A stretch of 64,000 bases of DNA from Terfezia claveryi (lineage: Eukaryota > Ascomycota > Pezizomycetes > Pezizales > Pezizaceae). Below the pieces are notes generated by a model, which saw only the letters and a list, made by a program, of their open reading frames with translations, had not been told where the DNA came from and did no database searches. This document shows positions 24,602 to 47,200 of this stretch, one piece after another (the first letter of the stretch is position 1; every line of letters begins with the position of its first letter). Made by a program: the position numbers and the translations under genes. The stretch lies in the NCBI GenBank assembly GCA_015179025.1, contig WHUX01000117.1, positions 104,538 through 168,537 on the forward strand, read 5' to 3'.

Positions 24602-25237
24602 TTTGTTTCCCGAGAAAACCTTTAACATGCCCTCTGGGTAATACGGACTACTGTAAAATGGCCCTCCACTTAGTGGAATATATTTAAGATACAACACAAA
24701 ACCACTCTCTCTACTAGACACAACACCTCGCTGCTTGGCATGACTCTATACAAAGGCCCCTTTTTTATGCCAGACTAACATGTGTCCTATCATGTGCTTC
24801 ACCAGTTCAGCATATACCTAGCATATATAGCATACCAAGCATACCAGCCCAGCATAACCTGTATAGCCGACACGCAGATACCCAGCAGCATACCGCGCCC
24901 ATACTCAGCAGCATACCACGCCCATACTCAGCAGCATACTGCGCCCATACCCAGTACACTTCACAACATACTCAAATTACCTAGTACATGGTGATATCTC
25001 TCAGTGCTCCTGTAGTAGGCTTGTACTTCGGGGGGGTCCACTAATTTGTACATGCATATTACATGCTCCTATGGTTATACCAGTACCTAGACTTCATGCG
25101 CTTTTTCTATGGCTAATATGCTATATATTATTGCTTTATTACTCCATACTCTCTTATAAGCAGGCATGCTTTAAATTACGTTATGCAATAGCTGTTAGTT
25201 TAATATGCTTTGTAGTTACCATCTTACTTTAGGGTAA
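24580..25237 (+). repeat. R1 inverted-repeat element, left arm
   Basis: About 650 bp whose reverse complement lies at 25690-26075 (inner part) and, beyond the Helitron, at 39349-39605 (outer part). Shared blocks: GAGAAAACCTTTAA, CACTTAGTGGAA, CCTTTTTTATGCCAG, ACCAGTTCAG, GTAGTAGGCTTGTACTT, ACCTAGACTTCAT, TTTTTCTATGGCTAATAT, ACTTTAGGGTAA. No protein is encoded. The other arm is richer in T at C positions. Confidence 0.8.
24885..24957. repeat. Minisatellite within R1, 24-bp unit
   Basis: Three copies of a CAGCAGCATACCGCGCCCATACT-like unit. The corresponding place in the right arm has one diverged unit, so the array expanded only in the left arm. Confidence 0.85.
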
Positions 25238-25689: not shown

Positions 25690-26075
25690 AAAATTACCCT
25701 AAAGTGTGATTATAACTATGGAACTACATCAAACCAATAGATAACTATTGCAATATATAATTTAAAGCATGTTTGCTTATAAGAGTATATGAAGAAATAA
25801 AGCAATCATATATAGTATATTAGCCATAGAAAAAGTGTATGAAGTCTAGGTACTAGTGTAGTTATAGAAGCATGTAAAATATATAAAACTTCTCTAAAGT
25901 ACAAGCCTACTACAAAAGTATAAAGAGATGTACTAGTTGAGTATGCTATAAAGTATACTAGGTATAGGCACTGGTATACTACTAAGTATGGGCTCGGGAT
26001 GCTATTAAGTATAAAAATAGGTATACTACATATCGGTTATACAAGATATATAATACTAAGGCTAGGTATACTGAG
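25690..26075 (-). repeat. R1 inverted-repeat element, right arm (inner part)
   Basis: Reverse complement of about 24830-25237. It breaks off at GGTATACTGAG (26065-26075); the remainder of the arm resumes at 39349, which places the Helitron between. Confidence 0.8.
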
Positions 26076-26740
26076 TCATCAATATACTGGACGTAGTGAG
26101 ACAGCATATCCGCGTTTTGACCTCCCCCATGCGCAACTAAACACACTAGCGAAAACAGGGTAAATAAGCCCGGCGCAATCTTACTTTGCATTCTCCGGGT
26201 TTCTTGGTTTTGTTGGTAGGGCCTGGCCCATCCTACTAGCATTATCAGGGCCTGTGTTCAATTCCCAGTACCCCCGTAAAGGACTAATTCGAATTTATCC
26301 TTGGCTGCGCTGATGTGGATGGTTCAAAACAAAAAAACTTATCCTTGCTTATTTAACCCTGTTCATCATAACTAATCTCTAAAAACATGTCTCTAAAAAT
26401 TGTGTCAAATTGTTGTCTCTAAAAATCGTGGGTTCTTGGCTTCTGTACTGGGATGAAGGTGCAGGCATTTTTACTCCTTTTTATCTTTACATCTCCCTCT
26501 CAACTCCAGCGCTCTCTCACATAGCCAGCGCTAGCCAGCGCTCTATCACACCAGCACTCTCTCACATATATTGCTGCTCCAACTCTACCACCGCTCCCAC
26601 CACTCCAACTCTACCGGCACTCTCCCAGCGCCCCTACTGCTCCAACCGCTCCAACTCTACCACCTGCCTCCAACTCTACCAGCACTCTCCCAGCTCCTAC
26701 TCTATATCGCCCACCTACCCGCTCCAACTCTTCAGGCATT

Positions 26741-28186
26741 ATGACTACTACAACTCCGCTGATACCTCTGCAGCCACTGACACTCCAATCACTACCTCCA
26801 CCTCTGCTACTACTACTACACTACCACTACAACTGCCTTACTTTCAGAGCAGGCATTTGAAGTCCGTTTAGCCCATTTGGTTGCCAGTGGGGCATTTAAT
26901 AAAGATCATCCACGGAGGGCAAAAGGACTATGCCAACATGTCAAACGTCTTTTACAATCGTGGGAAAAAGAGAAAACAACTCGAATCTTTTGGGAAGCTC
27001 CTATAAGTATTTCTGCATTGAAATGGTCTTTAAAAAATAAAAGAGGTTTGCATACTTCTTATAATTCTTATAATTTAGAGCTAATTATAAGAAATAAAGG
27101 TCAATATTCTATACCTGTAATGAGAAATTCTCAACTCTCATCTTTCCAAAGATTTCAATCAGGTCCAGAGCATTTGGAGATTAGAGATAAAAATGGCTGT
27201 CTTTTAGCTTACCGACTCAGAATTCCAGACTTCTTGGTTGGAGGCTTAGTTGAAACTGAGCTTCTTTTACTTGAAATAGGTGTACATCACCAACAGAGGA
27301 TAGATCCCCGAGGAGAATTTCCTATCTGACACTATGCTACTTGGGCTGATAGTAGCTTAGATATTTTTCATAGTAAAGATTATTTAACTCAACAGCCTGC
27401 CTCGATTACTTGGATTGAAAGGAATAAATCCCTATGGCGGTATCTTGGAGATTGTTTGAAGCTTATTTTTAAGCATATAATAAGCTTACTAACATTACAC
27501 TTCCTGACCCCCTTCAATTGTTATGTTATCCTTGGTCTGGAGCCACTATTAACCAACAAATGATACCGGATAGTATTTTACAATATCATCAAGATTGGAA
27601 GGATATTCGTTCTGCCCCCAATGCAGTTGTACCATATGGTGATTATAATGGAGGTGACTTAGTATTATGGCAAGCCAAATGCATTTTGGAGCTTCGACCT
27701 GGTGATACTCTATTATTTATGGGTTCTTTAATCTGTCATGGCAATACTAAGATTACTCGAGGTGTTAGGAATAGTGTTAATCTATTTACTTATAAGAGTA
27801 TCATAGATTGGATTAAACGGAACCCTTCTGCTTCTGTGTTAAAGAAAAAAAAAGGTGGTCAGCAGCTGGAGCCTCTTGAGCCTAAGAAAAAGCCGACTAT
27901 ATTGTCTGTGTATTGTCTGTGTATTGTCTGTGTATTGTCTGTGCTCCGTGTATTTTGCATGTCCGTCTATTGCTTTTTTTGCTCCGTGTATTTTGTATGT
28001 CCATCTATTGCTTTTTTGCTTCTCTGTACTAATAATAATATATTATATATACTACCTTCTACTTACTACTCACCTCCCTACTTACTGACCTCGACTTCCA
28101 CCCCTCTACGTACCTGTCAACTTCTATCGAACTATTTTTTGCCCACCTTTTATTTTTTACCCACCTTTGACGTACTCCTTATATAA
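26741..28186 (+). pseudogene. 2-oxoglutarate/Fe(II) dioxygenase-like gene, TET/JBP-like, inside the Helitron
   Basis: A likely ATG at 26741 is followed by a Thr/Ser-rich leader and the stretch AFEVRLAHLVASGAFNKDH (from 26853). The C-terminal domain shows the 2OG-Fe(II) signature: HxD as HQD (27587-27595), then GDYNGGDLVLWQAKCILELR and RPGDTLLF, a distal His in ICHGNTKI (27737) and an Arg in GVRNSVNLFTY. Spacing and the GDxxGGxL...PGD...HG..R.S...FT pattern resemble fungal TET/JBP-type oxygenases, which oxidise methylated bases; substrate is inferred only. Breaks: frameshift near 26800, TGA at 27328-27330, frameshift near 27478. The open frame continues through a repetitive cysteine/valine-rich tail whose stop overlaps the Rep ATG (TAATG at 28184-28188). 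The tail is probably not native protein. Confidence 0.68.
27901..28019. repeat. Minisatellite of TGTCTGTGTAT units
   Basis: Four near-perfect TGTCTGTGTAT units followed by two longer units GCTCCGTGTATTTTGyATGT, between the dioxygenase domain and the Rep start. Confidence 0.85.
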
Positions 28187-31100
28187 TGGATACAGCATAT
28201 TGTAGATGTTGTCAATCTCGAAAGAATGTTGATGAGTTTGATATATATATATCTCATGGTAGACAACAGTGAAGGTTAACTTGTATTCTATGCTTGGTTA
28301 GTATATATATATCACTATCTTAGTATATGAAATAAAAGACTAATATTAAATTAGATTAACTCCCGAGTTCGACAACGTCAACAGAGAGAAAGACTCAGAC
28401 TCCGTCAACAGGAACTCCATAATCAGAATCAGAATCAAAATCAGGAACAACCAAGAGGACAATATCATCATAGATAACTTGAAAGAGAGAGAGAAGAACA
28501 ATCCATCATTAGAAAAGAACAACTTATTATTAGAGGAGGAGAAGTAAGTAGTAATTAAATAGTAATTAACTATACTTGCTAATTTTTTATAATTAGAATC
28601 CCTTAATACAATTTCCTCGGGCATTCCAAAGTACAATACAACCAAGAACACACTGCTATTTTGGTACAATGTCAATAGTATGCTCTCAATGTACTGCATT
28701 ACATTAGTATAAAGAACGAATTAAACGACATCCCAGTACAGAACAAAACCCATTATTTGGTATATGTTGTAGTCAAGGCGATGTTTCAGTTCCATTTATG
28801 CGCCTACTACCTCCTCTGTTACATGGATTGTTATATGACCAAACCAGTACATCAAACTATTTCCGAACACATATCCGGAAATATAATTCTGCTTTAGCAT
28901 TTGTTTCTTTGAAATATCAGCCAGATCAACGTACGATTGGTGGACTACAATGCTTTCAAATCCATGGTGCATTATATCATATTACTGGACCCTATAGCAT
29001 CCTTTGAATGTCCGCCCTCAGTTTGCTCAAATATTTCTCTATGATCCTGAAGATGCAGTAGCTCAACTTCAACTTCGACCTGGGGCCATATATTACCTTC
29101 TGTAATTGACATGCGTCTCTTACAAGAATTATTAGTTATGTTACATGACTGTAATCCTTTTATTCCAATATACCGTACAGTACATGAAAGAATGCAAGAA
29201 GCAATTAGAGGATTATCTCAAGAGGAGGTTCAGATAATTCTTAATCCCCGTTTAGAATTAATACTTGCAAAAGGAGAGGACCATCGACGATATAATCTAC
29301 CTACAACAAATGAAATCACAATTATTATTCCTAATGAATATAATCTAGCTTCTAATTGAGATATTATACTGGCAAAGCAAATATACAACTACATCAAGCC
29401 TTTTTAACTATCAATTCCAGTCATGCTGCATATACACCTCTACATTATGTACTCTTATTCCCATATGGAGAACATGGATGGAATTGGTCATTATGACTAC
29501 AACATAGTCGCGATGGATGGATCTCCTAAACGACTATCACAAAGGTAATACTATCAGTTCCGTCTACATTCTCGATTATTCGAACTCATGACTCTATTTC
29601 ATGCAGGTCATCTACTATAACAATACATTGTGGATGCTTTTGCTGTTGTTGATCAAGCAAAGTTAGAGTGGATTCGAATGAATCAGGCATCTATATGAGC
29701 AGATTTGTATAATGGCCTAGCTAATGCTATTGTTTGGATGAGATAAATGCAAGTGCATTAGGACGGTGGGTAGTTTTACTAAGTAGTTTCTTGGGAAGTG
29801 ATCGATTTATGCAACAGCTTTTTCAAGATTCAATGGCTATTGTACGCTATTTCAGTAAACCTACCCTTTTTATTACATTCACTGCCAATCCTAATTGGAA
29901 AGAAATCCAAGATGAACTATTACCACATCAGTCAGCAATGGATCGACCAGATTTAGTAGCTCGGGTTTTTTATTTAAAACAACAAGATTTGCTTATACAA
30001 GTACGATTTGATGGAATTTTTGGCCAGTTTTTAGGTTGTGTATAGACAATTGAGTACCAAAAGCGTGGATTACCTCATATGCACTTATTAGTATTTTTAC
30101 ATCAAGAAGACCGATTCCTTACTTCAGAAAGAATTGATGAAATTATATGTGCTGAGCTTCCAACTCCAATTCAAGATCCTGATGGAGAACTACGAAGAAT
30201 CATTGGTACGTCAATAGTTCATGGTCCTTGCGGTGATTATTATCCTCGATTACCATGTATGGCAGGTGGAACTGGCCCAATAAGGTATGCAAAGCAATTT
30301 CCTAAGGAATTCCAAGAGATAACTATTGTTCAAGAAGATGGATATCCATTATATCGACGTTGAAATAATGGAGATATCTATGTTGGTCAAAATGGATTCT
30401 CATATGATAATCGTTGGGTTGTACCTTACAATCCTTACTTAAGTTACCACTATCAAGCACATATCAATATAGAAGTTTGTGCATCTATTCAAGCTATTAA
30501 ATATATTCATAAATATATTTATAAAGGTTCTGATCGTACTACTTTACAGTTACAGGAGACTGCTAATGCAGATAAGGTGCAACGCCATTTGCAAGGAAGA
30601 TATATTGGCCCCTGTGAGGCTATATAGAGATTATTTGAGTTTCGAATGCATGAAGAATTTCCTGCCATCTATCATTTACCAATCCACTTATCTGGGGAGC
30701 AACCAGTATATTTTGCAGAGGATTTAACAAGAGAAGAGCTTCAGTTACGGTTAGATACTGCTCGATCTAAGCTTATGGCATAGTTTACCTACAACTCCCA
30801 ACATGAAGATGGCCATCAGTACCTCTATCAACAATTTCCCCAACATTTTGTTTTTAAGGAAAAGGATAAACAATGCCACCGAAAATAACGTGGCTTTGCA
30901 ATTGGATGAATTTATCATTGTAATCCATTACAAGGAGAGCGGTTCTATCTATGTTTACTTCTTACAATTATCTCTGGTGCAACCTCATTTGCCAATCTTC
31001 GAACAATCAATAGGGTATTATATTCAACATTCTAGCAAGCCTGTCTTGCACTTGGGCTTTTAGAGGATGACAACGAATGGATTCAGTGCTTTGAAGAAGC

Positions 31101-31287
31101 AATTGTATTTGCAACTGGAGGTGCATTGCGTACCCTCTTTGCAATGGCAGTTATTCATAGTAGAGTTGTAGATCCAAATCATCTTTGGATGCACTTTAGG
31201 TTACATATATATGATGATCTACTTCGGAGAATACAACATTTGGCTATTCAAGTTCCTAATGATATTCCTATCTCACACCTAGATTAT
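28186..31287 (+). pseudogene. Helitron Rep (HUH) and helicase N-terminal part, broken
   Basis: Starts MDTAYCRCCQSRKN with a Cys pair zinc-finger-like head (later CILC). A probable 53-bp intron, GTAAGT at 28544 to AG at 28596, precedes the Cys-rich segment CSQCTALH and GICCSQGDV. The Helitron-like N domain follows (SLGSD-like segment, FITFTANPNWKEI near 29872-29910). The HUH motif is GLPHMHLLVFL at 30070-30102, and the two-tyrosine motif IKYIHKYIYKG is at 30499-30531. Numerous stops (near 30051, 30361, 30627, 30782) and frame changes exist. Rep nicks and joins the single strands in rolling-circle transposition. At 31287 the frame reads Asp-Tyr and is cut by Gypsy element 2; it resumes at 37674. 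Confidence 0.88.
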
Positions 31288-31855
31288 TGTCACAACCATG
31301 TTCTTAGTCTTGATTTGACACTCGAACAGGCTTGTTCGGGTGTCGTGCTGTTTTGACACTTGAACAGGCTTGTTCGGGTGTCATCGATGGGTGATTGTTA
31401 TCTTAGCTTCCGAGATAGGAATCTCGGGAAGCTTATTCCTTCCACGGCCTTGGCCTGGAATCATGTATATATATCTTCGTCCCTCCGCCCTCTCGTTGGA
31501 TACCCATTCAACGTCTTGTATATCCAATACAGGGCCTTGCTTCTCTCCACATTGGTGCATCTCCCTTGTGCACCTCCTTGCCTTGCCTCGCCTTGTCTCT
31601 GCAGCCCAGCTGCCTCCCTTGACACACGCGGCAACTACTTCCGTGTGTCTCGTGTCCCTTGCCCTCTGCCTCTCTTGCCTCTTGCCCTTGCCTCCCGTCT
31701 CAGCCTCCCCCTGGTCACACACGTAGTATTCCTACGTGTGTCTTACCCTAGCCTTTCCCCCGATCATACACGTAGCGCTCCTACGTGTGCGATTGCCCCT
31801 TGCAACTTCCTCGGCGTACCCCTTGGTCGCCTTGTCCCCCAGAGCCCTCGTTACA
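31288..31855 (+). repeat. 5' LTR of Gypsy element 2
   Basis: 568 bp. Near the 5' edge are two 28-bp imperfect palindromes with half-site GACACTCGAACA (31317-31344, 31355-31382). TATATATAT at 31466-31475 is the likely promoter; a CGTTGGAT..ATCCAACG hairpin and two ACACGTAG inverted repeats lie downstream. Confidence 0.95.
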
Positions 31856-32014
31856 CTACGTTGGATCCTTTGGACCAACTGGTATGCAGTCATGTCAGGA
31901 GCAGCTCTCCCACCACCCGCCGTCAGGTTCCAGACCTGGAGAAGCTCTCCTATACCCTCAGGCTAGAACGAATTGAATGCCTATCGTCGAGAAATCATCG
32001 ACATCTTCGAGGCC

Positions 32015-33106
32015 ATGGATGCCATCAGGGCCGAACTCGGCAACAGCCTGGCTGTGGCTGAAAACAGCCTGGCCGTGGCTGAACAAAAATTTAGATCCGC
32101 CGACGAAGAGATCACGGTCCTCTAGACCGATCTCGACCATCTGAACCTTGGCCTGGCCAACGAATGGACTACAGTCCAAAACCTCAGCCACGCTCTAGGG
32201 AACCTTGCAATACCAACAGCAGCCAGTAGCAACAAGACCGAAAGCATTCCAACACCCCCTAAGTTCAATGGGGACCGGGTTCGCCTACGAGCCTGGAAAA
32301 ATGCTGTCAATCTCAAGCTGAATGGGGATTCTGCCAGATTCCCGTCAGAACAACATCGACTGGCATACGTTTTCGCCTTGCTGGAGGGGAAAGCTTGCGA
32401 CCAGATCCAGCCATATGTCCTCGAAACCGGGATCAAGCTTGACGATATCTCGGCCCTTTTTACAATCCTGGATAGGGCGTTCGGGGACTCCGATGCCGTT
32501 GGCACTGCCAGTAGGGCCCTCCGAGCCCTCAGGCAGAAAAACACCGATCTGTCCACTTATGTGGCAGAATTCTCGAGACTGGCAGCGGAGGTCTGATGGA
32601 ATGACCAGTCCAAACTGGAGCAATTCCAGGAAGGGCTAAATGACGAAATCCAGCAGGCCATGGTCAGCCTCCCGGAAGCTAAAACCCTCGACGAATTCAT
32701 TAACCAGGCTTCTCGGGTAGAACAGCGGATATCCCGGCTCCACAACTGCCCCACGTACAGGCCAGCACCCCGTCTTCCACAACTCCAGCATCAGCCTCAG
32801 CAACACCATGCCACCAAAATAGCAGCCCCTGCCCCCGATAATAAGCCGGCCTACCCCTCGTTTGTGGCCGGAGGAGCCACCCCCATGGACCTATCTTTAG
32901 GAAGACCCCACTTGACACAGGAAGAAAGAGACCGCCGACGAACGAACAACCTCTGCATTGCGTATGGTAAGGGGGACCACTTCATTGCAGCCTGCCCTCT
33001 CCGGAAGGCTCGCTCCCTGGCTGTCTATGCCATTTCCCCGGCCGACACCCTAGTGCCCAGGATCGAGGAGGTCGACGAGTCGGGAAAAGCTCTGTCCCTT
33101 GCATAG
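32015..33106 (+). pseudogene. gag: Gypsy element 2 gag, two in-frame stops
   Basis: Capsid protein gene, 363 codons from the conserved ATG (context EAMDAI) to TAG at 33104-33106. The coiled-coil-like N-terminus, gag core (QFQEGLNDEIQQAMVSLPEA) and zinc knuckle region are present, but the knuckle reads CIAYGKGDHFIAAC: the second Cys is Tyr. Stops: TAG 32123-32125 (CAG in element 3) and TGA 32594-32596 (CGA in element 3). An upstream in-frame TAG just before the NELNAY segment supports starting at 32015. Slippery heptamer GGGAAAA at 33082-33088. Confidence 0.9.
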
Positions 33107-36100
33107 TTACTGACACTAGCAAGGGACCTGTCCCAGGCCATTTATCTCTGTCTTTGTCTGCATTTTCTGTTTCTTCCGCTTCTTCTGTTGTTGACGAATC
33201 TCGCTTGTTCAGCGAACATTTTGTTGTATCTATCTCCCTCAATATCAATGATAAAACAATCACCACGTCAGCCCTTATAGATTGCAGAGCTTCAGGAATT
33301 GCATTCGTTGACCAGGCCTTTGTCAGTAAATTCTCCATACCCACATCGAAGCTCAAAACCCCCCGTGTTCTGGATGTCATCGACGGTCGGCCCATCTCCT
33401 CTGGCGATATCACCGATATTACGTGCGTGCCTGCCCTGGTCAGGGATCACTTCAAAGCAAACCTCCCAATGTTCGTGACCAAGCTCAAATACCCGATTGT
33501 CCTCGGAATCCCCTGGCTTAGAATGCACAATGTATCGGTCAGCTTCGGCTCCTATACCCTGCAGTTCAACAGCCAGTATTGCAAAAAGCACTGTGGGAAT
33601 CCGAAGGCCACCGTTACTGGGCTGTGTGCCTTGCCACCCCCGATTTCCCCTGTGCCTTGATTTCCCCTGTGCCCCCTGTGCCCCCTAGCCCCCAAAAACC
33701 TCTGAATGTTAGCTTTATTGGGGCAGGGGCTTTCGCTTACCTTACTAGAAGGCACAACTGAAGGCTCATGCCCTGTCCATACACGAGGTAAACCTGGAGA
33801 TTAATAAGACACGGTCGAAGGAGGAGTGGAAGTCTATGGTACTGGAAGAATACCACGAATTCATCGACCTGTTCTCGGAGAAGGCCGCAGAAAAGCTCGC
33901 ACTCCACCGGCCATATGACCATACTATTCCGCTGATAGAGCGTAAGACCCCCCCCTATGGGCCCCTCTACGGAATGTCCCGGTTGGAGCTGGAAGCTTTG
34001 AAGAAGTACTTGGAGGAAAACCTTAACAAGAGCTTCATTGGCCATAGCTCTTCCCCAGCGGGCGCCCCGGTGCTATTCGTCAAGAAATCGGATGGCTCTC
34101 TTAGGCTATGTGTGGACTATCGGGGGCTGAACGAGATAACGGTCAAGAACAGGTACCCCCTACCTCTAATCCAGGAGACATTAGCCAGGCTTTCCAAGGC
34201 CAAATGGTTCACCAAACTGGATTTGAGAGGGGCATACAACCTGGTAAGGATTGCTGAGTGGGAGGAGTGGAAAACGGCCTTCCGAACTCATTATGGCCAC
34301 TTCGAGTACAATGTCATGCTCTTTGGATTAACCAATGCCCCGGCCTCTTTCCAGCACTTTATTAACGATACCCTACGAGACTTCTTAGATGTGTTCTGCA
34401 CGGCTTACTTCGACGATATCTTGATCTATTCAGATACCCTAGCAGAAAACAAGATTCATGTCCGGCAGGTGTTGGAAAAGCTGGAGCAAGCCAGACTATA
34501 CCTCAAGCCCGAGAAATGCGAGTTTCATGTGCAGGAGGTCAAATATCTGGGGTTGATCATCACCACGGAAGGCATCCGGATGGATCCTGCCAAAGTTGCC
34601 GCAATCTAGGAGTGGGAAACCCCGGCCAACTTGAAGGATGTGCAAGCCTTCCTAGGATTTGCCAACTTTTACTGCCGGTTCATCCTGGGATACTCAAGGA
34701 TCGCGGCACCCCTGACGGCCTTAACGAAAACAAAGGTAGAAGCTAGCTCATATCCGACAACGAAAAAGGCCTTCCAGTGGAATCCAGAAGCTCAGTTGGC
34801 CTTCCAGAACCTCAAGGAAGCCTTCTGCTCAGCACCGATCCTGGCCCATTTCGATCCGGACAGCGAATGTATCATGGAGACTGATGCCTTCGACTATGTC
34901 TCCGCGGGGATCTTGTCTCAGTATATCAACGGAATCCTCCACCCCGTGGCCTACTTCTCGAAAAAGCACTCCCCAGCTGAGTGCAACTACGAGATCTATG
35001 ACAAAGAGCTGATGGCCATCGTGCGAGCATTCAAAGAATGGAGGCCACATCTGGAGTCAGCCAAGGGGATCATCGAGGTACTATCTGATCACAAAAACCT
35101 TGAGTATTTTACAACCACCAAGCTGCTTAACCGGCGGCAGGCTAGGTGGTCGGAATTCCTCTCTTGGTTCAACTTTAAAATCAAGTACCGTCCTGGAAAG
35201 GCTGGTGGCAAGCCCGATGCGTTAACCCAGAGATCAGGAGATCTCCCTAAGGGGGGGGATGAAAGGCTAAAATACCAAAATCAGGTAGTATTGAAGCCCG
35301 AAAACCTTGATCTGGCGGCCAATGTCCTTGCTGAAGCTGAGGCTAATGCTGAAGCGGATGCGGAAGCCGAACCTGAGGCTAATGCTGAAGCTGAGGCTAA
35401 TGCGGAGGCTGAGGTGAGAGCTGAAGCTCAGGCTAATGCGGAGGCTGAGGTGAGAGCTGACCTCCGACAACTGGTGAGACAGGTATACGAGGACGACCCC
35501 CTGGCCAAGGAAATCATCACCGCAGTGGATTCTGGCCAGCGCCACCACCCCAAGATCTCCCTAGCCGAGTGTACCGTCCAGGAAGGCCTCCTCTACCACC
35601 TTGAACGGCTGTATGTACCGGAAGGAGAGCTGCGCCTTCGATTGATCAAGGAACACCATGACAGCCTGGTTGCAGGTCACCCTGGAGTGGCCAAAACGTT
35701 AGAGCTTCTGGCCAGGGAATATACATGGATTGACCAACGGAAGGACGTGGAGCGGTACGTACAGAACTGCCATGTTTGCAAGCGTGCTAAGCCTGTCCGC
35801 CATGCCCCGTATGGGACCCTGAAACCTCTGGATATCCCTGATCGGCCGTGGCTGCACCTGACTATGGACTTCGTGACAGGGTTGCCAGAAGATTCGGAGT
35901 TCAATGCCATCTTGATGGTGGTAGATCAGTTGACGAAAATGAGGCATGTTATACCTTGCCGGGACACCTACTCCACCCCAGAGTTAGCCAACCTCTACCT
36001 CAACAATGTATTCCGATACCATGGCATTCCTGAGTCGATCGTATCCGACCGTGGCCCTCAGTTTACCTCAGAATTCTGGCAAGCCTTCTGCGAACTTCTG

Positions 36101-36916
36101 GGGATCAAAGTACGCCTGTCAACGGCATATCACCCTCAGACGGACGGCCAATCGGAGAGGATGAATGCCATTATGGAGCAATATCTGCGGGCCTTTGTCA
36201 ATTACCAGCAGGATAACTGGGTTTCGTTGCTGGCCACCTGCGAATTCGCCACGAACAACCAGTTCACGGAATCCTCCAAAACCTCCCCTTTCCTGGCTAA
36301 TTACGGTTGGCACCCCCAGTTCGTGGATGCCTTGGCGCCCCTGCAAAAAGCCCACCCCCCAGCTAAGGAGTTCGTGGTTGGAATCGCTGAACTCCACCAT
36401 ACCCTGAAAGCCGAGCTGGGATATGCGCAAGCCTGGCAAGCTGAGTATGCCAATGGATTACGGTTGCCAGCCCCCAGATATCAGCCAGGAGACAAGGTGT
36501 GGCTCTCCAGCAGGCACTTCCAAACGGAACGGCCATCTCGCAAGCTGGATCACAAGTTCCTAGGCCCCTATGAGGTGTTAGCAGCTGTGGGTACTCATGC
36601 TTATCGGCTGAGGTTTCCTAAGGACATCAAGCGCCATTCGGTCATTCATGTCTTAGAGATCGAGCCAGCTGCCGACGATCCCCTTCTCGGGCAAAAGCAC
36701 CCCCCACCTCCTCCAGTGGTGATCACAGGTGAAGAGGAGTGGGAGGTTGAGGAGGTACTGGACTCAAGGAAACGCTATGGACGAGTTCAGTATAAGGTCA
36801 AGTGGTTAGGGGATGAGGAGGCTACCTGGCAACCCGCAGAGGACTTGGAGAATGCGCAGGATTTGGTCGCCCTATTCCACCAGCAATACCCAAGGAAGCC
36901 TCGCCCAATGGAATGA
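33088..36916 (+). pseudogene. pol: Gypsy element 2 pol, nearly intact from RT onward
   Basis: The -1 frame is open from the heptamer through the protease (active-site region D-C-R-A-S-G at 33280, Gly replaced by Arg) to TGA near 33658. Two frame changes occur in the Pro-rich linker (33658 and about 33758, the latter a 1-nt loss in RRHK). RT runs from 33836 with YFDD at 34406-34417 (Leu to Phe). One TAG at 34607-34609 (CAG in origin), then an open frame to TGA 36914-36916: RNase H, an Ala/Glu-rich repeat spacer (35320-35460), integrase zinc finger H-H-C-C (35650-35790), DDE core (MDF near 35865; SDRGPQFTSEFW near 36045; QSERMNAI near 36150), GPY/F (36560) and chromodomain (36735-36900). Confidence 0.95.
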
Positions 36917-37103
36917 TGTTGTGTCTTTTGAGAGTCATACGGTGGGGCCTCTCCGACTCTCGTTCTTCTCGCTCTTCTCGTTCTTCTTGTTGTTTGGAGT
37001 TGGAATCCTTGTCGTTGCCTTTGTTGTTGTTTCCTGTGTTGATTTTGCCGGTTATCGTGCCCAGGCCTCCTAGTCGCTGGAGCTCCAGCCTAAAGGGGGA
37101 TAG

Positions 37104-37671
37104 TGTCACAACCGTGTTTTTAGTCTTGATTTGACACTCGAACAGGCTTGTTCGGGTGTCGTGCTGTTTTGACACTCGAACAGGCTTGTTCGGGTGTCGT
37201 CGATGGGTGATTGTTATCTTAGCTTCCGAGATAGGAATCTCGGGAAGCTTATTCCTTCCACGGCCTTGGCCTGGAATCATGTATATATATCTTCGTCCCT
37301 CCGCCCTCTCGTTGGATCCCCATCCAACGTCTTGTATATCCAATACAGGGCCTTGCTTCTCTCCACGTTGGTGCATCTCCCTTGTGCACCTCCTTGCCTT
37401 GCCTCGCCTTGTCTCTGCAGCCCAGCTGCCTCCCTTGACACACACGGCAACTGCTTTCGCGTGTCTCGTATCCCTTGCCCTCTGCCTCTCTTGCCTCTTG
37501 CCCTTGCCTCCCGTCTCAGCCTCCCCCTGGTCACACACGTAGCGTTCCTACATGTGTCTTACCCTAGTCTTTCCTCCGATCACACACGTAGCGCTCCTAT
37601 GTGTGCGATTGCCCCTTGCCACTTCCCTGGCGTACCCCTTGGTTGCCTTGTCCCCCAGAGCCCTCGTTACA
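37104..37671 (+). repeat. 3' LTR of Gypsy element 2
   Basis: 568 bp, partner of 31288-31855; palindromes at 37133-37160 and 37171-37198. Confidence 0.95.
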
Positions 37672-39239
37672 ATTATGGTTTATATCTCCTTTCAAAACTC
37701 TTTGCAGATGCTGGGAAAGCTTTAACAGACTATAGTTTACCCTTACCGATAGCAAATTGGCAACACTTTGATCACGGGAATCAGCTTATTGTATCTAAAT
37801 TAGCATATAATACGAATACCGAAGAACTTCTTGCACATCAACAAGTTCAACAATTGAATGACAATCAACATCAAGCATATAATACAATTCTACAGCAAAT
37901 TGGAACCAATCCAAATAAAGCCCAATTTTTTGTTCAAGGCCCTACCGGAACAGGTAAAACATTTCTATATAAATGTCTATGCCATCACTATCGTGGTCAG
38001 GGAAAAATAGTTTTATGTGTAGCATCATCAGGAATTGCTGCACTATTACTTCCTAGAGGCCGAACAGCTCATTCTCGATTTTCAATTCCTTTAGATATCA
38101 ATGAACAATCTATGTATCGTATCGGAAAAAATACCCAACTTGCAGATCTTCTTCGACAAATAAGCTTAATTATTTGGAATGAAGTACCAATACAGCATCG
38201 ATATTGTTTTGAAGCTGTCAGTTGAACTCTTAATGACATTTGCAGTGTCTCCGACAATAACTTATTTGGGAATATTCCAATTGTACTCGGTGGTGACTTT
38301 GCACAAATTGCACCAGTTGTACCTCGAGGTAACCGAGCTACAACTGTTCGTGCTTCCATACAGAGTTCTCCAATATGGAAATACTTTCAGATTTTAAGCC
38401 TTACAATTAATATACGGGTATAAGAGGGAGCTGAAAATATTGCTTTTGCATCTTGGCTTGGAGAAATGTCATACAAGCCTACACTCTATGGTACAATTAC
38501 TTTACCCCCTTATATTCAAGCCTATACACGAGTTCAGGAACTCATTCAATTCATATATCCTCCTACCATTTTAGCGGCAGCACACAATGACTATATGGTA
38601 TTCAGCAATCAATGTATTTTAGCATTTCTCAATGAGATGGTAAATCAGTTTAATACTATAGTATTAGAACAGCTACCTGGAGATATACAAATATTTCATA
38701 CAATAAATACTACAGATGTCAATGAAGAAGATCCCGAATTTGTACAATATCCGGCAGAATACCTCCAAAGTCTTGATTGTAGTGGCCTACCTCTATCTCA
38801 ACTTATGTTAAAGGTTGGATGTCCAGTAATGCTTATACGGAATCTTTATCCAATAGAAGGTCTTTGCAATGGAACTCGGATGATTGTTACTCGGCTTGGA
38901 CAACGTTATATTGAAGTACAAATACTTGGAGGGGACTTTCATGGGAAACGCAAACTAATACCAAGAATTGTATTGGCTACTACTGAGGGCGAGCTTCCAT
39001 TTATCTTGAAACGAAAACAGTTTCCTATTAAGCTTTGCTTTGCAATAACTATTAACAAGTCATAAGGACAGACATTAGGTATAGTAGGGTTGGATTTACG
39101 TTATCCTTCATTCTCACATGGTCAGCTGTATGTTGCATTGTCACGAGTCACTAATGTAGCTAACCTTACTGTATTACAAACCTCATTTCCTGCTACTACA
39201 CATAATATTGTCTATCCTGAGTTATTGATCCACAACTAG
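37672..39239 (+). pseudogene. Helitron helicase, C-terminal part (PIF1-like, SF1B)
   Basis: Continues the Rep gene after the Gypsy insertion: the duplicated ATTAT restores the Tyr codon and the frame runs on as YGLYLLSKLF. Walker A GPTGTGKTF (near 37942-37968); Walker B-like LIIWNEVPIQHRYC (38165-38206) with Asp replaced by Asn in the DEAH-like box; then LCNGTRMIV and late motifs FAITINKSxGQTL and LYVALSRVTNVANL. Only three stops in one frame: TGA 38223-38225, TAA near 38422 and TAA 39063-39065 (in NKSQ, from CAA). Ends at TAG 39237-39239. It unwinds DNA during rolling-circle transposition in intact relatives. Confidence 0.9.
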
Positions 39240-39348
39240 AATTATTTTGTATTTAAAGTCAAGTATTGTAATATAACCAGAGTTAACTACTGTAGAAGTC
39301 ATTTTAACCCCTAGGATTCACGCGAGCGTAGCAAGCAGCAACCTCTCG

Positions 39349-39605
39349 TATACTAAGTATGCTGAGTATATACTGAACTGGTAAAGTATATGATAGGATA
39401 TATATTATGCTGGCATAAAAAAGGAGCCTTTATATAGAGTTATGTTAAATAGTAAAGTATTGTATCTAGTAGAAAAAGTAGTTTAATATTGTATCTTAGA
39501 CATGTTCCACTAAGTAGAAAGTATTTTATAGTAGTCTATATCACTTTAAAAGTATTTTAAAGGTTTTCTCTTTATTTTCTAGTAAAGATATCTCTCGTTC
39601 TATCT
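39349..39605 (-). repeat. R1 right arm, outer part (displaced by the Helitron)
   Basis: Reverse complement of about 24580-24829: shared CAGTTCAGyATATAC, CCTTTTTTATGCCAG, CTACTAGAyACAAyAC, ACTTAGTGGAA, GAGAAAACCTTTAA. Nearly every difference is C in the left arm against T here. Confidence 0.8.
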
Positions 39606-42545: not shown

Positions 42546-43029
42546 TGTCACAACCGTCCCTCCCTAGCCTGGTACGTTATTACTGTTATATCCTATTGAA
42601 TATTGTGGTTATCTCAGTTCCTGAGATAAGGGGTCTTGGGAACCTTATTTCTTTCGGTGGCCTTGGCTAGGAAGGAAGCCTGCCTGTATATATAGCTTGC
42701 TCTCTCTGCCCTCTCGTTGGATCCCCATCCAACGTCTTGTATATCCAATACAGGGCCTTGCTTCTCTCCACATTGGTGCATCTCCCTTGTGCACCTCCTT
42801 GTCTTGCCTCGCCTTGTCTCTGCAGCCCAGCTGCCTCCCTTGACACACGCGGCAACTGCTTCTATGTGTCTCGTGTCCATTGCCCTCTACCTCTCTTGCC
42901 CCTTGCCCTTGCCTCCCGTCTCAGCCTCCCCCTGGTCACACACGTAGTGTTCCTACGTGTGTGTTATCCTAGCCTTGCCCTTGCCCCGGCGTACCCCTTG
43001 GTCGCCTTGCCCCCAGAGCCGTCGTTACA
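42546..43029 (+). repeat. 5' LTR of Gypsy element 3
   Basis: 484 bp. TATATATA near 42687-42694, the CGTTGGAT..ATCCAACG hairpin at 42715-42734 and one ACACGTAG inverted repeat near 42938-42962. Confidence 0.95.
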
Positions 43030-43182
43030 CTACGTTAGATCTTATCGACCAACTGGTACACTGTCATGTCCGGAATCCCTCCACCCGCTATCAAGTTTCA
43101 AACCTAGAGGAGCTCCCCCATACCCTCAGGCTTGAACGAGTTGAATGCCTACTGTCAAGAAATCATCGACATCTTCGAGGCC

Positions 43183-44259
43183 ATGGATGCCATCGGGGCC
43201 GAACTCAGCAACAGCCTAGCTGTGGCTGAAAACAGCTTGGCCGTGGCTGAACAAAAATTGAGATCCACCGACGAAGAGATCACGGTCCTCCAGACCGATC
43301 TCGACCATCTGAACCTTGCCGTGGCCAGCGAATGGACTATGGTCCAAAACCTCAGCCGCGCTCTAGGGAACCTCGCAATACCAACAGCAGCCAGTAGCAA
43401 CAAGACCGAAAGTATTCCAACACCCTCTAAGTTCAACAGGGACCGGGTTCGCCTACGAGCCTGGAAAAATGCTGTCAATCTCAAGCTGAACGGGGATTCT
43501 GCCAGATTCCCGTCAGAACAACATCGACTGGCATACGTTTTCACCTTGCTAGAGGGGAAAGCTTGTGACCAGATCCAGCCATATGTCTTCCAAACCGGGA
43601 TCAAGCTTGACGATATCTCGGCCCTTTTCACAGTCCTGGATAGGGCGTTCGGGGACCTCGATGCCATTGGCACTGCCAGTAGAGCCCTCCGAGCCCTCAG
43701 GCAGAAAAACACCGATCTGTCCACTAATGTGGCAGAATTCTCAAGATTGGCGGCAGAGGTCCGATGGAATGACCAGTCCAAACTGGAGCAATTCCAGGAA
43801 GGGCTAAATGACGAAATCCAGCAGGCCATGGTCAGCCTCCCGGAAGCCAAAACTCTTGACAAATTCATTGACCAGGCTTCCCGGGTAGAACAGCGGATGT
43901 CCTGGCTCCACAACCACCCTACGTACAGGCCAGCACCCCGCCTCCCACAGCCTCAGCCTCAGCCTTAGCAACACCATGCCACCAAAATAGCGGCCCCTGC
44001 CCCTGCCAATAAGCTAGCCTACCCTTCGTTTGTGGCCGGAAGAGCTACCCCTATGGACCTATTATCAGGATGGCCTCGACTGACCCAGGAGGAAAGGGAC
44101 CACTGCTGCACTAATGGGTTGTGCATTGCGTATGGAAAAGGAGACCACTTTATTGCGGCATGTCCCCTCCGAAAAAACCGCCCCCTGGCCACTCATTCCA
44201 TCTCCAAAGCCCGGATCGAGGAGCTCGACGAGTCGGGAAAAGCCCTATCCCTTGCCTAG
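43183..44259 (+). pseudogene. gag: Gypsy element 3 gag, one in-frame stop
   Basis: 358-codon capsid gene from the conserved ATG to TAG 44257-44259; the frame is open about 25 codons upstream of the ATG. Gag core is intact. TAG at 43966-43968 replaces CAG in the Pro/Gln-rich stretch before the zinc knuckle. The knuckle reads CIAYGKGDHFIAAC with the second Cys lost. GGGAAAA at 44235-44241 is in the phase needed for -1 slippage (G-GGA-AAA). Confidence 0.9.
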
Positions 44260-47200
44260 TTACTGACACTAGCAAGGGACCTGTCCCAGGCCATTTATCT
44301 CTGTCTTTGTTTGCATTTTCCATGTGTTCCGCTTTTCCTGTTGTTGACAAATCTCGCTTGTTCAGCGAGTACTTTGTTGTATCTATCTCCTTAAAAATTA
44401 ATAATGATAGAACAATTATGACGTCAGCACTCATAGATTGCGGAGACTCAGGAATTGTATTCGTTGACCAGGCCTTTGTCAGTAAATTTTCCATACCCAC
44501 GTCCAAGCTCAAAACCCCCCGTATTCTGGACGTCATCGATGGTCGGCCCATCTCCTCCGGCGATATCACCGATATTGCATGCTTGCCTGCCCAGGTCGGG
44601 GATCACTCTGAGTCAAATCTCCCAATATTTGTAATAAAGCTCAAATACCCTATTGTCCTCAGGATTCCCTGGCTCAGAGTGCACGATGAATCGGTCAGCT
44701 TCGGCTCCTATACATTGCGGTTCAACAGCCCTTACTGCAAAAGACACTGCGGGAACCCGAAGGCCACTTTTACTGGGCTATGTGTACTGCCACCTCCAAT
44801 AATCCACCCAACCCAGGTGGCACACCAGTCTGTACACATCAATGCTACTGACTCCACTGTTTCCCCTGTATCCCCAGTTTCCCCTGTGCCCTCAGTTTCC
44901 CCTATGCCCCCGGTTTCCCCTGTCCCTCCCATGGCCCCTGGCTCCCCTAGCTCCCCTAGTTCCCCTGGTTCCCCTGGTCCCCCTATCTCCCTTGTCCAGC
45001 TGCTCCCGAAGCCCCTCAACGTTAGCTTTATCGGGGCAGGGGCCTTCACTTACCTTACTAGAAGGCACAAGCTGAAGGCTCATGCCCTGTCAATACATGA
45101 GGTAAATCTGGAGATTAATAAGACCCGGTCGAAGGAGGAGTAGAAGTCCATGGTCCCAGATGAATACCACGAATTCATCGACCTGTTCTCGGAAAAGGCT
45201 GCAGAAAAACTCGCACCCCACTGGCTATATAACCACACGATTCCGCTGATAGAGGGTAAGACTCCCCCCTATGGGCCCCTCTACCAAATGTCCTGGTTAG
45301 AGCTAGAAGCTTTGAAGAAGTACTTGGAGGAAAACCTCAACAAGAGCTTCATTCGCCACAGCTCCTCACCAGCGGGTGCCCCGGTGCTATTCGTCAAGAA
45401 ATCAGATGGTTCTCTTAGGCTATATATGGACTATTGGGGGCTGAACGAGATAACGGTCAAGAACAGGTATCCCCTGCCTCTAATCCAGGAGACATTAGCT
45501 AGGCTCTCCAAGGCCAAATGGTTCTCCAAACTGGATTTAAGAGGGGCATACAACCTGGTACGGATCCCCGAGGGGGAGGAGTGGAAAACTGCCTTCCGAA
45601 CTCATTACGGCCACTTTGAGTATAATGTTATGCCTTTTGGGTTGACTAACGCCCCAGCCTCTTTCCAGCACTTTATCAATGACACCCTGCGAGACTTTCT
45701 GGATATGTTCTGTATAGCCTACCTTGACGATATTCTGATCTATTCGGATACCCTAGCAGAGCATAGAATCCATGTCCGTCAAGTGTTGGAAAAGCTATAA
45801 CAAGCTGGATTGTACTTCAAGCCTGAGAAGTGCGAGTTTCATGTGTAGGAGGTCAAGTATCTAGGCTTAATCATTACCACGGAAGGCATCAGGATGGACC
45901 CTGCCAAGGTCACCGCTGTCTAGGAATGGCAAATCCCAGCAAATCTCAAGGACGTCCAAGCCTTTCTGAGGTTCGCTAACTTCTACCGACGGTTCATTCT
46001 AGTGTATTCAAAGATTGTAGCCCCCCTCACCACCCTGACCAAAAAAGACCGGTGTTTCGACTGGAATCCAGAAGCCCAATCTGCCTTCCAGAACCTCAAG
46101 GAAGCCTTCTGCTCAGCACCGATCCTGGCCCATTTCGACCCAGACAGCAAATGTATCGTGGAAACCAATGCTTCCGACTATGTCTCCGCGGGGATATTGT
46201 CTCAGTATGTCAACGGCATCCTGCACCCAGTGGCCTACTTTTCGAAAAAGCACTCCCCAGCTGAGTGCAACTATGAGATCTATGACAAGGAGCTGATGGC
46301 CATCGTGCAAGCATTCGAGGAATGGAGGCCCCACCTGGAGTCAGCCAAGGGGATTATCGAAGTACTTTCCGACCATAAAAACCTTGAGTACTTTACCACC
46401 ACCAAGCTGCTTAACCGACGGCAGGCCATGTGGTTGGAATTCCTCTCTCGGTTCAACTTTAAGATCAAGTACCGTCCTGGAAAAGCGGGTGGCAAGCCTG
46501 ATGCGTTAACTTGGAGATCAGGAGATCTCCCTAAGGGGGGGGATAAAAGGCTAAAATACCAAAATCAGGCTCAAAAAGATTGATCTGGCGGCCAATGTCC
46601 TTGCTGAAGCTGAGGCTGAGGTTGATGCGGAAGCTGAGGCTGATGCGGAAGCTGAGGCTAATACGGAAGCTGAGGCTGATGTGGAAGCTGAGGCTGATGT
46701 AGAAGCTGAGGCTGCCATGGAAGCTGACCTCTGACAACTGGTGAAACGGGTATACGAGGATGACCCCCTAGCCAAGGAAATTATCGCCGCAGTAGATTCT
46801 GGCCAGCACCGCCACCCCAAGATCTCCCTAGCCGAGTGTACCGTCTAGGAAGGCCTCCTCTACCACCTCGAATAGCTGTATGTGCCGGAAGGAGAGCTGC
46901 GCCTTAGATTGATCAAGGAACACCATGACAGCCTGGTTGCAGGTCACTCTGGAGTAGCCAAAACATTAGAGCTTCTGGCTAGGGAGTACACATGGATTGA
47001 CCAACGGAAGGACGTGGAGCAGTACGTACGGAACTGCGACGCTTGCAAGCATGCTAAGCCTGTCCGCCACGCCCCGTATAGGACCCTGAAACCTCTGGAT
47101 ATCCCTGATCGGCCGTGGCTGCACCTGACTATATACTTCGTGACAGGGTTGCTAGAAGATTCGGGGTTCAATGCCATCTTGATGGTGGTAGATCGGTTGA

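Follow-up and report, generated by a model that had tools for sequence, protein, structure and literature searches.

Why does a Helitron in the genome of the truffle Terfezia claveryi (Pezizaceae, Pezizales) contain a gene for a TET/JBP-like oxygenase, and what would the element gain from it? The gene lies in a 64-kb stretch of DNA (hereafter the window), which corresponds to positions 104538-168537 of contig C21 and was analysed together with the 72.6 Mb of the genome. At positions 26076-39348 the window holds a decayed Helitron, interrupted by a long terminal repeat (LTR) retroelement. We consider it probable that this is a defunct copy of a rolling-circle element whose standard gene set comprised a TET/JBP oxygenase and the RepHel protein, the oxygenase serving to counter the silencing of the element by methylation.

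The limits of the element were derived from a blast comparison of the window with fetched copies and are common to L009 and L010 (both 95-96% identical to the window element) and L011 (91%). An earlier, sequence-only reading of this DNA had placed the oxygenase gene inside boundaries set by a split repeat, and this was borne out by an uninterrupted copy of the repeat in the same window, which runs across the junction with neither the Helitron nor a target-site duplication. Other copies of the repeat span the junction in a listing of unaligned matches, e.g. on C443 at 72% identity. All four copies of what we call family A start with TCATCAATATACT, one of them with a change further in, and all four inspected copies of family B with TCTATAATATACT; the end of the family C copy was looked for and not found. 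Canonical Helitron1 elements start with TC and insert between A and T; the eight 5' ends inspected all read TC, preceded by A in six cases and by G in two, one of which is the window. RepHel, i.e. an HUH-type Rep with a two-tyrosine motif joined to a helicase, is recognisable from sequence in the window. PF14214 (Helitron_like_N) matches positions 29725-30042 with an E-value of 3.5e-30, HMH and YIHKYIYKG are what we take to be the HUH and two-tyrosine motifs, and the helicase part, identified by reading alone, contains GPTGTGKT and GGDFAQIAP, presumably the Walker A motif and the Walker B region. Frames at 42671-46583 of the window look, by reading, like another copy of the gag-pol element that is inserted into the Helitron.

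The oxygenase gene is located upstream of RepHel and has an ATG at 26741. The signature from HQD to LFTY is present where the sequence-only reading had seen it, and it is placed beyond chance by matches to PF12851 (Tet_JBP), both of the 154-residue piece in the window (1.4e-5, 24.8 bits, below the cut-off of 34.9) and of a homologous frame that is open in a relative, L018 on C701 (7.3e-12, 45.3 bits, above the cut-off). Tet_JBP is the best Pfam profile, as had been expected, and no other family of 2-oxoglutarate (2OG)-dependent enzymes scores better; in NCBIfam the frame finds only weak PKHD-type matches, far below cut-off. The gene had rightly been described as broken, but it is broken into at least three pieces, with an in-frame stop and frame changes, rather than into two frames. 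Its end, formerly set at 28186, has to be moved back by about 290 bases: the TET copies linked to a hAT transposase (see below) cease to be homologous near 27898, and the window sequence that comes next codes for no conserved protein.

A DNA search of the genome with the TET gene gave 23 matches. The Rep domain of Helitrons was matched 25 times in 20 places, ten of which join the lineage of the window by DNA alignment (C701, C209, C83, C44, C42, C21, C271, C523, C229 and C68:12 kb). In eight of these ten, spanning the three families A, B and C with a mutual identity of about 70-75%, TET lies upstream of Rep in the same orientation. For the two others, C229 and C68:12 kb, 6.0 and 5.8 kb were read without a TET match, and their homology begins within or just ahead of RepHel; because no 5' end is seen, we regard them as fragments and not as complete elements devoid of TET. 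In three B-type copies (L022, L023 and L024) the part that was read includes TET and hardly any RepHel, or none. Families A and B are supported clades in both the TET and the Rep tree and C is a single copy, although with only three families the unrooted order in the two trees agrees of necessity. According to the NG86 method, TET genes of different families differ by a dS of 0.87-1.94 with a dN/dS of 0.10-0.16 (8 pairs) and a 367-codon stretch of Rep by a dS of 1.01-1.16 with a dN/dS of 0.13-0.16 (8 pairs), values that are rough where dS exceeds 1; within families the dN/dS is higher, 0.37-0.98 for TET (6 pairs) and 0.85-1.62 for Rep (4 pairs). Because TET has diverged like Rep and was equally constrained between families, its presence in these Helitrons most likely predates the separation of the families, and the equality of constraint indicates that, as long as the elements moved, they depended on the oxygenase no less than on the transposase. 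Other copies thus have the oxygenase in the matching position, as the sequence-only reading had asked of a genuine component, and under a constraint equal to that on Rep; an intact frame recurs only in part, the copy on C701 being open over a core of 218 residues. Among viral contigs, 12 stretches fit a pattern and none of them codes for a relative.

The decay of the copies bears the mark of cytosine methylation, as had been suspected. Private substitutions are dominated by C to T or G to A changes (72 of 89 in the window, 90 of 115 in L009, 58 of 91 in L010 and 373 of 411 in L011), and, per site, changes at CpA and CpG outnumber those at CpT by a factor of three to seven, in the manner of repeat-induced point mutation (RIP). 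Matches to the cytosine methylase family PF00145 are found on three contigs of the genome. In core codons 1-185 of TET there is no stop or frameshift common to all copies of family A (4), of family B (6) or of the hAT-linked set (6, five of which cover the first core codons).

As to the activity of the enzyme, a model of a full-length homologue, P0007, is predicted to have the double-stranded β-helix fold of TET proteins, with CcTet, NgTet1, TET2 and CMD1 as the best matches, in agreement with the family assignment made earlier from the sequence. The iron triad HxD...H and the 2OG-binding arginine align with H229, D231, H279 and R289 of NgTet1, and the piece in the window keeps them as HQD, CHG and the R of GVRNS; HxD is present in all 14 alignment rows that cover the site (3 of the 17 rows do not reach it). 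The family also has the residues with which NgTet1 contacts 5-methylcytosine (5mC), D234, F295 and H297 (in HQDWKD and LFTHK), in a comparison that covers these three positions, N147 being outside the alignment. The closest solved sequences are those of NgTet1, a 5mC oxidase, and according to PMC11040006 an Asp at the position of D234 holds 5mC and reportedly clashes with N6-methyladenine (6mA). In an active element, RepHel would make the nick and do the unwinding that transposition requires. The TET protein, if its residues are a guide, would move into the nucleus, where it would flip out 5mC in the element's own DNA or promoter and oxidise it; methylation-based silencing and the accompanying RIP-like C to T mutation would be weakened and the element would stay expressed. 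The enzyme might instead produce a novel base in the manner of CMD1 or JBP, or have another base or RNA as its substrate, thereby marking or hiding the element without removal of 5mC. CMD1 is indeed among the fold matches of the P0007 model and a fold alone does not give the product; besides, Kojima (December 2025, PMC12730594), who proposes escape from methylation silencing for TET-bearing Helitrons, leaves other activities open. The Asp and the closeness to NgTet1, however, argue for 5mC as the substrate, and we hold such a different activity to be unlikely, although worth keeping in mind.

TET/JBP matches at E-values up to 0.001 occur at 33 distinct places in the genome. Among the other ten Rep places, the surroundings of Rep were read at C490 (L046) and C645 (L047), where RepHel frames with far weaker PF14214 matches represent a second Helitron kind, with a TET gene nearby on the strand opposite to RepHel. 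TET of this second kind (L031, 45.6 bits with PF12851) has the motif HKD and shares about 30% identity with the window type; the predicted model of its representative P0027 (pLDDT 58.9) was too poor for a fold search. Open TET/JBP-like frames of further types are present at L029 (C26, 351 residues) and L030 (C534, 419 residues). Intact frames of this sort could speak for TET genes that serve the regulation of methylation by the host and are merely housed in transposons, yet TET of the window type sits in Helitron copies or in the hAT-linked repeat, decays with them and shows a constraint that parallels that of Rep, which makes a host function quite improbable. A single chance capture without function for the element, suggested by the broken window copy and by the habit of Helitrons, known gene catchers, of capturing gene fragments, is hardly credible and is contradicted by the position and orientation of TET, which do not change between families A, B and C, and by its Rep-like divergence and strong constraint between families.

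Several observations nevertheless weigh against our view of these elements as Helitrons equipped with TET against silencing. The canonical 3' end of Helitrons is CTRR, and it is absent from the six copies inspected, all of which end with CTYG, followed in all six by T. For a 3' hairpin, four of four 3' ends fold no better than shuffled sequences (z of -0.05, -0.64, 1.04 and 1.03). The window copy is dead, and it has a Tyr (27791-27793) where other copies (LFTH in L009, L010, L011, L017 and L018) and NgTet1 (His297) have the 5mC-contacting His. None of the Helitrons of the window lineage showed a TET gene open over its full length, the core on C701 being the best of the copies read, and the basic tail after codon 185 has lesions shared by most or all copies. 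The dN/dS ratios between families, rough where dS exceeds 1, are also distorted by the C to T decay.

Another question is whether the gene has left the Helitrons. Six TET copies (L012-L017, on C746, C90, C27, C572, C667 and C245) are linked to a hAT transposase and share with the Helitron only window segment 26143-27898 or a part of it, with a DNA identity of 83.5-84.0% for L012-L016 and of 89% over 521 bases for L017. The repeat that houses them is 91-95% identical between copies, the longest pair (C27 and C90) extending over 15.2 kb, and the transposase gene lies downstream of TET (Dimer_Tnp_hAT, 1.6e-22 in the C90 copy; its BED and RNase-H parts are under the cut-off, and NCBIfam has no match to the hAT frame). 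Transposases at least 79% identical to the query are encoded at six loci (C27, C667, C245, C85, C572 and C90); five have TET upstream on the same contig and strand, at C245 about 37 kb away, and at the remaining one, C85, the hAT gene begins 2.7 kb from the contig start, too near to tell. On C746 TET is present and the contig ends ahead of the transposase. In an unrooted tree the hAT-linked TETs group together (98/97) and then, separately from B and C, with family A (100/100), and the non-coding sequence upstream of them is partly shared with B and C; for these two reasons the direction from Helitron to the hAT-linked repeat is favoured. Directly upstream of the TET segment there is a minisatellite of GTGACAATACTTGTCGCC-like units (on the reverse complement, L013 127-624 and L014 1-573). 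The dN/dS between L009 and L012, L013, L014 or L017 is 0.41-0.61, neither neutral nor strongly constrained; L017, homologous only from core codon 39-40 on, was used in trimmed form and its untrimmed comparisons were dropped.

The putative TET anti-silencing gene may have passed, together with its upstream region, from a Helitron to a cut-and-paste hAT element in a truffle genome that has a second TET-bearing Helitron kind as well, as an exchangeable counter-defence part of an HxD form outside the type published for this order; we put this forward tentatively. The competing account, which in our estimate could equally well be right or wrong, is that TET is no cargo of hAT: a Helitron fragment landed in a larger hAT-containing repeat and the whole was duplicated, TET being perhaps already broken. 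No ends of the repeat were found, C27 and C90 being still homologous throughout 15.2 kb, with stretches added on both sides and a retroelement gag within the shared part. There is no clear terminal inverted repeat around TET and the transposase either, the best candidates left of the former and right of the latter having 13 bases (C90), 11 bases (C27) and 22 imperfect bases (C572) in a search seeded by 11 exact bases, which shorter repeats would escape. No TET match accompanies the nearest outside relatives of the transposase, C47 (70% identical) and C143 (54%). Moreover, core codon 21 is a stop in four of the five hAT-linked copies that cover it, as in two of the four family A copies, and because of this stop we slightly lowered our estimate for a transfer to hAT and raised that for a passive duplication; one frame change after codon 185 is found in all six hAT-linked copies. 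Against mere duplication stand the five of six loci with TET upstream of hAT and the absence from core codons 1-185 of a lesion common to all hAT-linked copies. As the ends of the element were not found, TET counts as a candidate cargo of hAT.

Should the enzyme do what its residues suggest, a transposon brings along its own eraser of the silencing mark of its host. A single genome contains three related Helitron families, another Helitron kind and a hAT-linked repeat, all with TET, beside cytosine methylases and methylation-type decay.

Table 1. Coordinates of the Helitron, its genes and its surroundings in the 64-kb window.
Feature	Position	Strand	Basis
Helitron 5' part: terminus, TET/JBP gene, Rep part of RepHel	26076..31290	+	alignment boundary shared with L009-L011
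Helitron 3' part: helicase, 3' terminus	37672..39348	+	L009-L011 continue where 5' part stops
5' terminus TC	26076..26077	+	shared start of copies
3' terminus CTCG, then T; CTTG in some copies	39345..39348	+	copy ends compared
Decayed TET/JBP oxygenase gene	26741..27900 (end approximate)	+	pieces, PF12851 match, copy homology
TET gene pieces	26781-27326, 27330-27560, 27473-27934	+	PF12851 on last piece only
In-frame TGA stop in TET gene	27327..27329	+	translation
Catalytic signature HQD ... RPGD ... CHG ... R..LFTY	27587..27810	+	located in sequence
HQD	27587-27595	+	located in sequence
GDYNGGD	27638-27658	+	located in sequence
RPGD	27695-27706	+	located in sequence
CHG	27734-27742	+	located in sequence
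RNSVNLFTY	27767-27793	+	located in sequence
Rep part of decayed RepHel gene	28621..31188 (limits approximate)	+	range from copy alignment
HMH	30076-30084	+	located in sequence
YIHKYIYKG	30502-30528	+	located in sequence
GPTGTGKT	37938-37961	+	helicase, by reading
GGDFAQIAP	38289-38315	+	helicase, by reading
LTR retroelement inserted into Helitron	31285..37671	+	missing at that position in L009-L011
LTRs of inserted retroelement	31285-31855, 37101-37671	+	95.8% mutual identity
Left half of Helitron-split repeat (R1 of the sequence-only reading)	25694..26075	+	alignment to empty site
Right half of Helitron-split repeat	39349..39570	+	alignment to empty site
Uninterrupted copy of split repeat (empty site)	24612..25237	-	73-77% identical, crosses junction

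Compared with known systems, the closest solved sequence is that of NgTet1 of Naegleria (PDB 4lt5, 5cg8 and 5cg9), whose iron, 2OG and 5mC-contact residues align at about 17-21% identity and which is not known as a transposon cargo. CcTet of Coprinopsis cinerea (PDB 7vpn, 7w5p and 8jkk), a fungal protein, is the best fold match by E-value at about 14% identity; in Kojima's account it is close to the AG-type TETs of Kyakuja elements, so that its relatives are transposon-borne (PMC12730594). Where CcTet has Gly331 the Terfezia family has Asp, and because of this replacement a CcTet-like 6mA activity would not be expected of the latter, going by PMC11040006. KDZ transposons (Iyer et al. 2014, as cited in PMC12730594) carry TET/JBP genes in fungi too, with a transposase of another kind than RepHel. 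A TET gene inside a Helitron, unfamiliar to the sequence-only reading, has in fact been published: Kojima reports such elements from Puccinia graminis, from Agaricus bisporus and, among Pezizales, from five species in four families (PMC12730594), and a 2026 review that cites this work describes such enzymes as still awaiting functional characterisation. TET+ Helitron1 of P. graminis (PU type) has the same combination of Helitron and TET/JBP in a different phylum (PMC12730594). TET+ Helitron1 of Pezizales is like the Terfezia element in its TET/JBP gene, in the fungal order and in the suggested role against methylation silencing; its hosts are listed from Ascobolaceae, Tuberaceae, Morchellaceae and Pyronemataceae, without the Pezizaceae to which Terfezia belongs, and elsewhere the same paper counts the PE type in five families (PMC12730594). 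By Kojima's text, on which this difference rests, the hallmark of the PE type is HxE, whereas the Terfezia family has HxD; since the two TET types read in Terfezia have HxD and HKD, neither is of the PE type. The same source, as far as it was available, names only Helitron and IS3EU elements as TET carriers in Ascomycota, with no hAT, and reports TET-bearing hAT elements from Puccinia only, with one case of more than 70% DNA identity between superfamilies (PMC12730594). TET-bearing Helitrons as such are therefore already known, and Terfezia extends them by an HxD enzyme, by a second Helitron kind with a distant TET of its own and by a TET of probable Helitron origin that keeps 83-89% DNA identity and lies ahead of a hAT transposase gene in a multicopy repeat.
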